IMG/VR virus record: IMGVR_UViG_3300025101_000148
Location: 1-26,488 of that record
Direction: 5' to 3' (one strand)
Length of the DNA: 26,488 bases
DNA from: a virus
In this document: piece after piece, positions 2,527 through 7,332 of the stretch
Layout of the letters: each line of letters begins with the position of its first letter
Numbering within the stretch: position 1 is the first letter of the stretch
The notes under the pieces: model-generated
Told to the model about the DNA's origin: nothing
Database searches by the model: none
The model's input: the letters and a program-made list of their open reading frames with translations, nothing else
Translations under genes and position numbers: made by a program

Positions 2527-2960
2527 GAGATTTATTTGGAAACAAAATAAAAGAAAAGGTTGTTATTAAAGATACCTTGGTATGCATTAAATGCAATACA
2601 CAACAACCCATAGATCAGTTCAGTGCGATGAACTATGCTAGTGATAAACCTACAGAAATTAAAAGAACATGCAGAACTTGCATGAGAAATCAATCTAGCT
2701 TGGTCAAGAAACTAAAACAGCAACACCCATACCCTGCTGATGATTACAAATGTCCTATATGCGACAGAGATATAGAAGAGATAGGCAAGTATAATCAACC
2801 ACGTCTACAGAATTGGGTGTTAGACCACTGTCACGACACAGGTACATTTAGAGGTTGGTTATGTCATCATTGTAACGTAGGTTTAGGTGGGTTCAAAGAT
2901 AGCTTGACAAGACTTAAAAAAGCTGTCATATATATGACTAAACATAAGGAGAGTTTATGA
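2523..2960 (+). CDS. Recombination endonuclease VII-like HNH nuclease
   Basis: The protein (145 aa) carries the endonuclease VII signature: a CPIC zinc pair at 77-80, then LDHCHDTGTFRGWLCHHCN (100-118), with D101, H102 and H104 as the likely active site, C114/C117 completing the zinc site and N118 following. In T4 this family cuts Holliday junctions, Y-branches and mismatches before packaging. An extra CxxC...CxxC finger (C21, C24, C50, C53) sits at the N-terminus and may add DNA binding. The gene overlaps the helicase and the polymerase by ATGA on each side, which places it firmly in the replication operon. A stand-alone HNH homing enzyme is the alternative, but the full Endo VII pattern argues against it. 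Confidence 0.85.
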   Translation: MRDLFGNKIKEKVVIKDTLVCIKCNTQQPIDQFSAMNYASDKPTEIKRTCRTCMRNQSSLVKKLKQQHPYPADDYKCPICDRDIEEIGKYNQPRLQNWVLDHCHDTGTFRGWLCHHCNVGLGGFKDSLTRLKKAVIYMTKHKESL

Positions 2961-4981
2961 AGATAACAATTGACGTAGAGAATACAGTTCAAACTCGTGA
3001 GGGTAAACTACATCTTGACCCTTTTGAAGAGAGGAATGAACTAGTAATGGTAGGCATACTTACAGAGAAAGGTGATGAGTATCTGTATAGAATGAATGAA
3101 GAAAATGTTTACGATAAAATACAATCACTACTTGATGAAGCAACCGTGTTGATTGGACACAATATTGTTCACGATTTAATGTGGTTGTGGGAGTCTAGTT
3201 TTAAATATGAAGGAGATGTGTTTGATACTATGTTAGGAGAGTACATACTACAAGAAGGACAGAAGCAACCTCTTACACTAGAGCTATGTGCAGAAAGATA
3301 TGACCTTGACACAAAGAAACAAGACACATTAAAAGAATACTTTAAGAAAGGTTATAGTGTGGCAGACATACCACCTGATGAGTTATCAGAGTATCTGTCA
3401 GCAGACTTACACGCAACACAGGAGTTATCAAATGAAATATACAAGAAGCTACAGTCACCACAATATGAACATCTTTTGGACACTGTTACTCTTACTAATA
3501 GTGTTGCCCTTTGTTTGGCTAGGATTTATCGTGTTGGTTTTAGTGTTGACGTTGATGGTCTTGATGAGGTACGTAAGTTATTTACTCAAGAGAAGAGAGA
3601 GATAGAGACAGAGCTAAACAAAGAGACTAGATATTTTATGGGTGACACACCTGTAAATTTAAATAGTCCTGAGCAACTGTCGTGGTTAATATATTCTAGA
3701 AAACCTATAGACAAACACGATTGGGTTATGACATTCAATTCTCACATGCCAAAAGATGAGTTTCGTTTAGCTATAAATAGCAAGGCAGAGATACTTAGAA
3801 AGACTAAGGCAGAACAGTGCCACGTGTGTCACGGACACGGAAAGATTAGAAAGACTAGAAAGGATGGTACACCCTATGCAAACGAGAACAGATGTATAGA
3901 ATGTGACGCACTAGGATATAAGTTTATTCCTACATCTGAGTTAGCAGGTATGGGTTTTACACCACCGACTGCTAAGTGGATATCAGCTAATGGATTTACT
4001 ACAAGTAAGAACAGTCTTCAATACTTAAAGTCCGTTGCTCGTCAAAAGAATATGGACAGAGCAGAAAACTTCTTAGAAAAAGTAATTAGACTATCAGCTT
4101 TAGATAGCTACCTCTCTTCATTCGTTGAGGGCATAGCATCTAACATCAAGTCTGACGGAAAGCTACACGTTAGATTATTACAACACCGTACAGCGACAGG
4201 TAGGTTTAGTGGAGCAGACCCCAACATGCAGAATATGCCAAGAGGTGGCACGTTTCCTGTTAAGCGTGTGTTTGTTTCACGATGGGAAGGTGGCAAGATA
4301 CTTGAAGCAGACTTTGCTCAACTAGAGTTTAGAACTGCTGCATATTTGTCACAGGATGAAGTAGCAATGAAGGAGATAAACAATGGGTTTGACGTACATA
4401 ACTACACTGCCAAAGTTATTACTGAAGGTGGTCAAAAGATTAGTAGGCAAGAAGCGAAAGCACACACGTTCGCACCACTCTACGGAGCTACAGGGTTTGG
4501 GAGGTCGCCTGCTGAAGCAACGTATTATAGACAGTTCACGGAAAAGTACAAAGGAATCGCATCTTGGCATGCCAGATTGGCTACGGAAGCTCTGAATGAT
4601 GGCAGAATAAAGACACCATCAGGTAGGTCATTTGCTTTTCCTGATGTGCAGAGAAGGTTTAATGGTTCACCTACACACTTTACACAGATAAAGAACTTTC
4701 CTGTGCAGAGCTTTGCGACAGCAGATATAGTTCCTATAACTCTATTAGATATAGAGAAACAACTACACAGTATGCAGTCATGCATAGTTAATACAGTACA
4801 TGATAGTATTGTAATAGATGTACACCCTGACGAGGTTGAATCAGTTCTTGGTGTAATAAAAAATACTAATGATAGATTGAAAATAATTGTTGACAAACAG
4901 TTTAAAATAGATTTAAATGTACCATTAGTATTAGAAGCAAAAATAGGTAATAATTGGCTTGACACGAAGGATGTTAGCTGA
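2957..4981 (+). CDS. DNA polymerase, family A, with inserted DnaJ-type zinc finger
   Basis: This is the replicative polymerase of the phage, with proofreading. The 674-residue protein begins with a 3'-5' exonuclease domain: DVE (D6, E8), IGHNIVHDL (D73) and YLSAD (Y146, D150). The thumb starts near 175 and contains NLNSPEQL (234-241). An insertion of about 100 residues then holds CHVCHGHG (288-295) and CIECDALG (313-320), a DnaJ-like zinc site. The polymerase core follows: TATGRFSGADPNMQNMP (412-428), motif A LEADFAQLEFR (D452), motif B with R497-K501-F505-Y509-G510, and motif C VHDS (H615, D616). F505 sits at the position of E. coli Pol I F762. No 5'-nuclease domain is present. The zinc insertion matches the polymerase I recall for HMO-2011-type marine podoviruses. 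Confidence 0.95.
   Translation: MKITIDVENTVQTREGKLHLDPFEERNELVMVGILTEKGDEYLYRMNEENVYDKIQSLLDEATVLIGHNIVHDLMWLWESSFKYEGDVFDTMLGEYILQEGQKQPLTLELCAERYDLDTKKQDTLKEYFKKGYSVADIPPDELSEYLSADLHATQELSNEIYKKLQSPQYEHLLDTVTLTNSVALCLARIYRVGFSVDVDGLDEVRKLFTQEKREIETELNKETRYFMGDTPVNLNSPEQLSWLIYSRKPIDKHDWVMTFNSHMPKDEFRLAINSKAEILRKTKAEQCHVCHGHGKIRKTRKDGTPYANENRCIECDALGYKFIPTSELAGMGFTPPTAKWISANGFTTSKNSLQYLKSVARQKNMDRAENFLEKVIRLSALDSYLSSFVEGIASNIKSDGKLHVRLLQHRTATGRFSGADPNMQNMPRGGTFPVKRVFVSRWEGGKILEADFAQLEFRTAAYLSQDEVAMKEINNGFDVHNYTAKVITEGGQKISRQEAKAHTFAPLYGATGFGRSPAEATYYRQFTEKYKGIASWHARLATEALNDGRIKTPSGRSFAFPDVQRRFNGSPTHFTQIKNFPVQSFATADIVPITLLDIEKQLHSMQSCIVNTVHDSIVIDVHPDEVESVLGVIKNTNDRLKIIVDKQFKIDLNVPLVLEAKIGNNWLDTKDVS
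3818..3916 (+). other. DnaJ-type CxxCxGxG zinc finger inside DNA polymerase
   Basis: This segment encodes CHVCHGHG, a 17-residue basic loop, and CIECDALG. The two halves give four cysteines with the spacing of one zinc site of the DnaJ cysteine-rich domain; DnaJ itself has four such repeats and two sites. It lies in the thumb just after the NLNSPEQL helix. From memory, the thioredoxin-binding insertion of T7 gp5 lies just before the equivalent FNPSS element, so the two insertions occupy neighbouring but different places. A role in processivity or partner binding is inference. Confidence 0.85.
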
Positions 4982-5017: not shown

Positions 5018-5902
5018 ATGAATATAGATACAAATAACTTTGCCGATATGGCACAGAAGATGGGGATGGGAGTAGACCTAACCCAAAAGAAACAGACAGC
5101 ACAACTTGCTCGTCTTAAAATACAACACTCACCGATTATGGGTGAGGTTGAAGTCAAGGGTAAAAAAACACAGGCTGCCATAGTCAATGGTGGTTCTTAT
5201 AAGATAGATGACTTATCTAGTGAGAGTGTATTTTATTCTGACGATGTTACAATCAGACCTTATGTACAGAGATTTATGTATAAGAAGTTTGTCAAACCTG
5301 AATCAGGTAAAGGCTTTTATGTCAAGACTATTATGGCAGATAACTTAAATGTTGACCTCAAGGATAACACAGGTGGGTTTAACTGTGGAAAGCCTGCAGG
5401 TTTTGTGAAGGATTACCAAGCATTACCTGTCAAGACAAAGGAACTCTTGAAGAGTATCAAGAGAGTAAGAGTATTGATTGGAACTCTATCAGCAGGTTCA
5501 GTATTGGATGCTGATGGTAATGATGCAATGGAGATTGGAAACTTACCATTCATATGGGAAGTAGACAACAGAGATGCATTTAAAATAATGGGCGAACCCA
5601 TAGCCAAGATTGGTAGTAGAAAGCACCTACCTGTACAATACACAATAGGACTAGGTTCTGAAGAAAGAAAGTTGCCTAACGGTAACTCCTACTACCTACC
5701 TACTGCATCCTTAAACTCAGATGTATTAGACGTAGATGATGGCACACAAGATCACTTCTCTGATTTTATGCAATGGATTGAGAACTATAACTCATACATA
5801 TTCAATGCATGGAATGAGAAAGCGAAGCCTGCAGATATGTCTACATCTGATAAGGATGTAGTTAAGAACCTTGTTGATGTTGAAGATGAGATACCTTTTT
5901 AA
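5018..5902 (+). CDS. Probable single-stranded DNA-binding protein
   Basis: No family was recognised along the body of this 294-residue protein, but its end, DVEDEIPF, is almost the conserved C-terminal tip of bacterial SSB (DDDIPF in E. coli), which docks partner enzymes. A charged, flexible stretch (about 270-285) precedes the tip, as in SSB. The body is mixed beta-type with basic and aromatic residues (for example RPYVQRFMYKKF at 80-91), consistent with an OB-like DNA-binding core. It lies between polymerase and exonuclease, the place where T7-like phages keep SSB and nuclease genes. The stop is joined to the exonuclease start by TAATG. The call rests mainly on the tail and the position. 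Confidence 0.65.
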   Translation: MNIDTNNFADMAQKMGMGVDLTQKKQTAQLARLKIQHSPIMGEVEVKGKKTQAAIVNGGSYKIDDLSSESVFYSDDVTIRPYVQRFMYKKFVKPESGKGFYVKTIMADNLNVDLKDNTGGFNCGKPAGFVKDYQALPVKTKELLKSIKRVRVLIGTLSAGSVLDADGNDAMEIGNLPFIWEVDNRDAFKIMGEPIAKIGSRKHLPVQYTIGLGSEERKLPNGNSYYLPTASLNSDVLDVDDGTQDHFSDFMQWIENYNSYIFNAWNEKAKPADMSTSDKDVVKNLVDVEDEIPF

Positions 5903-6645
5903 TGAAGAAGAATAATCCATTTGAGGTACACAACATTGACTACCTATCGCCTAGCAGCATGAATACCTACATAAGCGATGTGCCTATGTGGGTAGCTAGG
6001 TATTTGTTTGGTGTTAAATCAGGCAGTGGAGCAGGTGCAGTCAGAGGTATAGTGCAAGAGTCTGTCTTAGCAGATAAATATAAGACAGGAAAGTTTGACT
6101 TTGATTCTTTGGAAGTAAAATATATAGACACTTGCATTGAATTTAAACTTGACCTTGAAGATGTCAAGATAGAAAAAGAAAAGAAACTTTTAAAAAACTT
6201 TGGCAAAATTATTGATGACAACTTTGACTACACTGACCTGCAAGACTACCAAGAAAGAGTAGAAGTAGAACTAGAAGATATGCCTATACCTGTTATGGGT
6301 TACATTGATTTTAGATTTAAAGATAAGATAGTAGATTTAAAAACAACAACACGCATGCCATCTAAACCAACTGAAGCACAGATGAGACAGATGGCTTTCT
6401 ATTCTATGGCATACCCTGATAATAGTGTGGACTTATTTTTTGCTACACCAAAAGATTATAAGAAGTTCACACTAGATAATTTATCTGTGTACAAAAAGCA
6501 ACTAAAGAAAGTAGCATTTAGTATACAGAAATTTTTGTCCGTCAGCAATGATAGACATGAGTTAGCTTCTTTAGTATACCCTAACTATGATTCATGGACT
6601 TGGGGTTATAAACTAAAACAAGAAGCAAAGAAAATATGGAGCTAA
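5902..6645 (+). CDS. PD-(D/E)XK exonuclease (RecB/Cas4-like)
   Basis: This is probably a 5'-3' DNA exonuclease for recombination and breakdown of host DNA, playing the part of T7 gp6 with a different fold. The 247-residue protein has the core motif order of RecB-type nucleases: an early LSPSSMNTYI (15-24), GYIDFRF with D136, then IVDLKTT with D145 and K147, and QMAFY (Q163, Y167) on the following helix. The usual early histidine is not obvious; GIVQE at 50-54 occupies the expected region. No iron-sulfur cysteine set is present, which separates it from typical Cas4. It starts within the SSB stop (TAATG), so its translation is coupled to SSB. Confidence 0.82.
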   Translation: MKKNNPFEVHNIDYLSPSSMNTYISDVPMWVARYLFGVKSGSGAGAVRGIVQESVLADKYKTGKFDFDSLEVKYIDTCIEFKLDLEDVKIEKEKKLLKNFGKIIDDNFDYTDLQDYQERVEVELEDMPIPVMGYIDFRFKDKIVDLKTTTRMPSKPTEAQMRQMAFYSMAYPDNSVDLFFATPKDYKKFTLDNLSVYKKQLKKVAFSIQKFLSVSNDRHELASLVYPNYDSWTWGYKLKQEAKKIWS

Positions 6646-6876: not shown

Positions 6877-7332
6877 ATGTCAGCGTACAGTGCTAAACAT
6901 ATAGCACGAAAGAATGGGTATAGGAGTGGTTTGGAAGATGCTGTTGCCACTTACTTAAATAAGTTAAAGATAGTATTTACTTATGAAAAGGTAAAGATTG
7001 AGTGGGAAGACCTTGCATATCGCACCTATACTCCTGACTTTGTATTAAACAATGGAATAATAATTGAAACAAAAGGTATGTTCACAGCTTTAGATAGGCG
7101 AAAACATATAGCTATTAAGAAGCAACATCCTAAATTAGATATTCGTTTTGTGTTTACAAATAGTAAAAGAAAATTACGTAAAGGTGCAAAGTCTTCTTAT
7201 GCACAGTGGTGTATAAGATATGGGTTTAATTATTATGATAGAATTATACCTGAAGAATGGCTAAAAGAAAAAGGAAAAACATTAACAAAAACTTTTATTC
7301 CTTATAGGGGTAGAAAAATAAAAAGGAGTTAG
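6877..7332 (+). CDS. T7-like endonuclease I (Holliday junction resolvase)
   Basis: This enzyme resolves four-way junctions and branched replication DNA; in T7 the same enzyme also helps degrade host DNA. The 151-residue protein matches T7 gp3 in length and in its active-site layout: YRSGLED gives E20, YTPDFVL gives D54, and IIETKG gives E64 and K66, next to T7's E20, D55, E65 and K67. The region RKHIAIKKQHPKLDIRFVF (75-93) and the closing PEEWLKEKG are also typical. The C-terminus is strongly basic. The enzyme acts as a dimer in the family. A second, unrelated junction nuclease of the endonuclease VII type is encoded at 2523-2960. Confidence 0.93.
   Translation: MSAYSAKHIARKNGYRSGLEDAVATYLNKLKIVFTYEKVKIEWEDLAYRTYTPDFVLNNGIIIETKGMFTALDRRKHIAIKKQHPKLDIRFVFTNSKRKLRKGAKSSYAQWCIRYGFNYYDRIIPEEWLKEKGKTLTKTFIPYRGRKIKRS

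Follow-up and report, generated by a model that had tools for sequence, protein, structure and literature searches.

A predicted zinc finger in the thumb of an HMO-2011-type family A DNA polymerase and its candidate roles

HMO-2011-type phages, which have been described as dominant in the ocean, are recognized partly by a DNA polymerase that carries, between its exonuclease and polymerase domains, a partial DnaJ central domain with two CXXCXGXG motifs (PMC6918029, PMC9038755). This finger is the recognition mark of their polymerases, and the GenBank record of HMO-2011 itself bears a partial-DnaJ annotation. A thumb insertion is also present in the family A polymerase of T7, in which basic residues contact the DNA backbone (PMC5984650) and basic patches bind acidic tails, the tail of the T7 helicase being acidic (PMC12593628). 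For Pol I, truncation of the thumb reduces both processivity and fidelity, according to the passage of PMC10061031 that cites Minnick 1996.

We analyzed a 26,488-base IMG/VR virus record (IMGVR_UViG_3300025101_000148), referred to here as the window, in which an earlier note made from the sequence had pointed to a finger of this kind. That note had stated that the insertion is known from HMO-2011-type phages and that its role is not settled. Both statements agree with the literature (PMC9038755, PMC6918029), and our search, which covered mostly literature outside subscription, found no functional test of the finger and no biochemistry of the enzyme. The polymerase and its parts, the primase, the helicase, and the gene that follows the polymerase lie on the plus strand.

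The polymerase and its insertion site

The polymerase gene (2957-4981) encodes a 674-residue protein that shares 62.6% identity with the HMO-2011 DNA polymerase and 63.7% with its counterpart in Roseobacter phage CRP-345; CRP-1 is similar. Pfam detected both DNA_pol_A (E value of 1.1e-51) and DNA_pol_A_exo1 (8.5e-8), identifying a family A polymerase with a 3'-5' exonuclease domain. As the earlier note had claimed, the catalytic motifs are complete: the exonuclease residues D6/E8, N69...D73, and Y146...D150 were all found, as were polymerase motifs A (DFAQLEFR at residue 452), B (RQEAKAHTFAPLYG at 497), and C (VHDS at 614), and most of these residues are invariant across 68 relatives. In a maximum-likelihood tree built on the palm region, all finger-bearing polymerases, including those of HMO-2011 and the window, formed one clade (support of 97/89). 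The finger is the published group-defining feature, and the window polymerase is another HMO-2011-type member.

Upstream of the polymerase, the replisome context consists of a DNA primase (521-1312; phrog_47 DNA primase, 1.3e-14) and a DnaB-like replicative helicase (1303-2526; Pfam DnaB_C, 1e-14). An endonuclease VII-like gene, which may be a mobile homing-type endonuclease, occupies positions 2523-2960 between helicase and polymerase; these two genes directly adjoin in HMO-2011 and HTVC033P. Farther downstream, beyond the gene that follows the polymerase, lie a gene for a PD-(D/E)XK-like protein, matched weakly (5902-6645), and then one for a T7-type endonuclease I (6877-7332).

The insertion occupies residues 247-345 (3695-3991), between the thumb helix motif NLNSPEQL that directly precedes it (residues 234-241, 3656-3679; N234, L235, and S237 invariant) and the TATGR start of the palm (residues 412-416, 4190-4204; T412, T414, and R416 invariant). 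These positions bear out the claim of about 100 inserted residues between the two landmarks, with the next thumb element starting at residue 346. At this site, bacterial PolA has just a short loop, and the nearest phage relatives have 47 to 122 residues. NLNSPEQL corresponds to NLSSTKQL of E. coli Pol I, and the Pol I loop after this motif presumably falls in the thumb-tip segment deleted in the classic Klenow thumb mutant, by our own residue count.

In T7, the corresponding motif is NPSS at residue 335. GAPVVDDE follows 25 residues later, the same spacing as in Pol I, and the insertion that binds thioredoxin precedes NPSS. Aligners run without motif anchoring overlay the T7 and window insertions, so that the placement is taken from motif spacing; on that spacing, the statement in the earlier note that the T7 insertion lies just before the matching element was correct. 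An insertion immediately before the motif, as in T7, was not found in the window polymerase, where the insertion follows NLNS. With one insertion before and the other after the matching motif, the two flank one short helix.

Sequence, structure, and conservation of the finger

Within the insertion, zinc knuckle 1 (CHVCHGHG, residues 288-295, 3818-3841) and zinc knuckle 2 (CIECDALG, residues 313-320, 3893-3916) are separated by a basic loop (KIRKTRKDGTPYANENR, residues 296-312, 3842-3892). The span of 3818-3916, where the motifs had been placed originally, runs exactly from C288 to G320 of the polymerase reading frame. An AlphaFold2 model of the polymerase based on 68 sequences (mean pLDDT of 89.6 and pTM of 0.83) has an overall Pol I fold, with Bacillus Pol I as the best PDB match (TM of 0.69 to 0.79), and block mean pLDDT values of 84 to 92 over residues 281-330. 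In this model, the finger is a long beta-hairpin at the thumb tip, with a stem formed by residues 281-287 (3797-3817) and 321-329 (3917-3943), both strands having a pLDDT of about 92, and with both knuckles and loop 296-312 positioned beyond the stem, so that two CxxC knuckles for one predicted zinc carry an outer basic loop.

We examined conservation in 177 relatives whose identity ranges from about 35 to 100% (effective number after weighting, 27). C288, C291, and C316 are present in 177/177 and C313 in 176/177; G293, G295, and G304 are likewise kept in all 177, and residue 301 is always K or R. This conservation rules out chance or a sequencing artifact. The lone loss of a knuckle cysteine was C313D (codon GAC) in relative L062, which may be genuine or stem from misassembly. 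Two CxxC motifs suffice for one site, and our data favor the single zinc site that had been predicted. Both synonymous Cys codons are used at every cysteine position, and random pairs of relatives differ at ~48% of amino acids in the finger segment (about 50% in its flanks) and at 36% in the palm and fingers of the polymerase. The codon usage, together with a finger segment more divergent than palm and fingers, supports selection on the motif rather than recent copying.

A second sample was blind to the finger and consisted of 72 viral PolA reading frames selected with a DNA pattern of the palm motif. Of these, 43 had both CxxC pairs, at a constant distance of 25 residues, and the other 29 had no CxxC pair; since the pattern favors HMO-type genes, this ratio is no frequency, and the all-or-none split is what counts. 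The first motif of the window polymerase is canonical, and the second is CxxCxAxG instead of CxxCxGxG. The second motif is canonical in 24/43 and 99/160 relatives, about 60% of the group, which makes the strict wording of two CXXCXGXG motifs too narrow. In two CRP-3-like relatives (L100 and L101), 12 extra, mostly basic residues lie between the knuckles, indicating that the loop tolerates extension.

We also looked for the finger in other cultured-phage polymerases. Among 50,697 phage records, strong matches occurred only in 12 HMO-2011-type records; two weak extra matches were inspected and proved to be a CxxCxGxG-repeat protein and a DnaJ. No CxxC was found in 71 bacterial PolA thumb segments, and the best 80 matches listed from bacterial genomes, PolA-like genes with ≤33% identity, included no HMO-type prophage. 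Among the matches listed by Foldseek against viral models, none was a finger-bearing relative by name.

The DnaJ-type description of the motif pair held in part. Residues 282-321, between the exonuclease and polymerase domains, match Pfam DnaJ_CXXCXGXG (PF00684) at 19.1 bits, under the 32.7-bit cutoff, and this model is also matched by 66/68 relatives (best E value of 3.8e-6). The best PDB sequence match of the finger is the E. coli DnaJ Cys-rich domain (1exk, E value of 5.5e-4), with DnaJ motifs 2 and 3 as the best stretch. These findings support one two-knuckle, DnaJ-like site, but one with a noncanonical second motif. The polymerase has two CxxCxGxG-type motifs rather than the four motifs and two zinc sites of DnaJ/Hsp40, and Pfam detected no J domain; together with the score below the gathering cutoff, these differences rule out DnaJ membership. 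We also observed a weak likeness to phage antitermination protein Q (PDB 7ubj, E value of 0.24; 4mo1, 0.42), and Q proteins possibly carry another single-site knuckle of this kind.

Finger-bearing polymerases and their sisters

The sister of the finger clade comprises MEP402 and QDWS535 (support of 99/96), followed by ICP2 and VP41s3 with the Autographiviridae R8W and PGT2 (100/95). The MEP401/402 authors describe their enzymes as lacking the HMO-type domain (PMC10580990). The sister polymerases have an insertion of 47 to 122 residues at the same thumb position, net +1 to +6 in charge and free of CxxC pairs; most show a [FY]K.G.R.GE-like pattern. The net charge is +4 to +6 in MEP402, QDWS535, ICP2, and VP41s3, and PGT2 is weakly basic at +1; the insertion is 47 to 53 residues long in Zobellviridae and QDWS535. 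Profile alignment placed the finger and the sister insertion at the same site with a strand-by-strand register that varied between methods, so that we claim no homology at the residue level. Seeing the finger as a solution separate from that of T7 at almost the same position, as proposed, is fair, but the finger is not alone in using this site, as relatives without CxxC pairs have insertions there too.

The simplest account of these sequences is that the finger-bearing clade arose once, with the knuckles hardly ever lost among those sampled. Since the closest polymerases carry a basic but knuckle-free insertion at this site, basicity is probably older than zinc, and the knuckles were probably added to a pre-existing basic insertion.

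Two further observations concern the sampled genomes. The polymerase is split into two reading frames in ICP2, MEP402, QDWS535, and VP41s3 (L084, L086, L296, and L298), in some of them separated by a small ORF, and an intron has been suggested by the MEP401/402 authors. The 110,914-base record IMGVR_UViG_3300029448_000003 contains two different HMO-type polymerases (L016 and L019) about 59 kb apart. With a length roughly twice that of an HMO-type genome, the record is probably two genomes joined in assembly.

Candidate roles and partners of the finger

The loop between the knuckles is basic in 33/33 representatives (net +3 to +8, mean of +5.1), and the whole polymerase averages -1.2; a median of 1.5% of same-length stretches of the same proteins are equally basic. 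These charges, together with the near-invariant cysteines in an otherwise diverging finger and the confidently modeled stem-hairpin, are consistent with a zinc-stapled basic hairpin that acts as a clamp to grip DNA, dock an acidic tail, or both, a reading by analogy to which we give an even chance. The four cysteines would bind one zinc, which would stiffen the hairpin into a permanent positively charged handle on the thumb. Behind the active site, the handle would press against the phosphates of the primer-template backbone and thereby raise DNA affinity and processivity; T7 obtains the equivalent handle through host thioredoxin bound to a neighboring thumb loop. The acidic C-terminal tail of a putative single-strand-binding protein (SSB) may dock on this basic surface as well, as in T7. 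Further arguments for this clamp are its position in the thumb-tip segment that comes after NLSSTKQL in Pol I, an enzyme in which thumb truncation lowers processivity and fidelity, the analogy to the basic thumb insertion of T7, the acidic tail always encoded by the next gene, and the basic insertion of sister phages at the same site. Against it stand the +1 charge of the PGT2 insertion and the substitutions R298Q in part of the clade and K299L in L097 and L093, and the loop could bind something else.

The next gene (5018-5902, 294 residues) encodes a candidate partner that its synteny and tail charge mark as a putative SSB. An acidic-tail gene lies downstream of the polymerase in 146/146 pairs, with a median gap of 55 bases and all gaps ≤850 bases. 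The last 20 residues of its product average -6.0 and reach -3 or lower in 146/146 homologues, a level seen in 13% of other ORFs. The tail in the window ends in DVEDEIPF, and in the sister phages the gene that directly follows the polymerase gene encodes an SSB-like product ending in DDLESDIPF or DMEDDIPF. We take such ends to resemble the acidic tip of E. coli SSB. Phage and bacterial SSBs characteristically have acidic tails (PMC5686142). The model of the downstream protein is rich in beta structure and has a disordered tail; neither Foldseek nor profile searches matched it significantly to a solved SSB, and PHROGs placed it only in a family of unknown function (phrog_5686, 24/57 members, best value of 1.5e-4), so that the SSB identity rests on position and tail. 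C-terminal tails of 162 helicase homologues average +0.1 and are not acidic, which rules out a T7-like partnership with an acidic helicase tail and makes the T7 helicase route unlikely. From these comparisons, the acidic-tailed downstream product, and not the helicase or a chaperone, is the likeliest phage partner.

Docking of this tail could even be the main role of the finger, a possibility that we regard as serious though on the unlikely side. The constancy of the tail and of its gene position, the DVEDEIPF end with its DIPF counterparts in sister phages, and the nonacidic helicase tail all favor it, as does SSB binding at the thumb tip predicted for the C. perfringens PolA-SSB pair (PMC10061031). 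However, the downstream protein has no significant SSB fold match, and many homologue tails are without the DIPF tip though the finger cysteines are kept. An improbable alternative is that the finger serves only as a structural staple, holding the long insertion of the thumb in its fold, having no partner, and contributing little to DNA binding. The knuckle cysteines and glycines are indeed its most conserved part, and sister phages do without zinc at the same site, but a mere staple would not need the loop charge, which is conserved too. Recruitment of the DnaK/DnaJ chaperones of the host to the phage replisome is very improbable, as the match to 1exk and the mention of a DnaJ role in lambda replication (PMC9038755) are set against a missing J domain, two of four motifs, a score below the Pfam cutoff, and conservation of knuckles and basic loop rather than of a DnaK-binding motif.

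Returning to the clamp, we tentatively propose, as an unlikely but specific model, that the pair of CxxC knuckles arose a single time on a basic thumb insertion that predates them, rather than being transplanted from DnaJ, and yielded a self-sufficient clamp that replaces a protein processivity factor and docks the acidic tail of the neighboring SSB-like protein. A built-in clamp would show how a replicative family A enzyme can dispense with both thioredoxin and a sliding clamp, and the zinc-stapled hairpin would lend itself as a module to making polymerases more processive. The sister-phage insertion and the neighboring acidic tail offer specific, cheap tests of the role of the finger.

Among known systems, HMO-2011-type polymerases share with the window the same gene, domain order, and two motifs, and nothing essential differs; the window has CxxCxAxG as second motif and an endonuclease VII gene between helicase and polymerase. 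The PolA proteins of Zobellviridae and related phages (MEP402, ICP2, and VP41s3; QDWS535, R8W, and PGT2) are nearest in the tree and share the insertion point and net positive charge, but their insertion lacks CxxC pairs and is shorter in Zobellviridae and QDWS535. The DnaJ/Hsp40 Cys-rich domain (PF00684) shares CxxCxGxG-type knuckles, with alignment to its motifs 2 and 3, but has four motifs against two and two sites against one, and no J domain was found in the polymerase. The thioredoxin-binding domain of T7 gp5 is likewise a basic-rich thumb insertion in a phage family A polymerase; in contrast to the finger, it lies before the N-x-x-S helix, has no CxxC knuckles, needs thioredoxin, and belongs to an enzyme distant in the tree.
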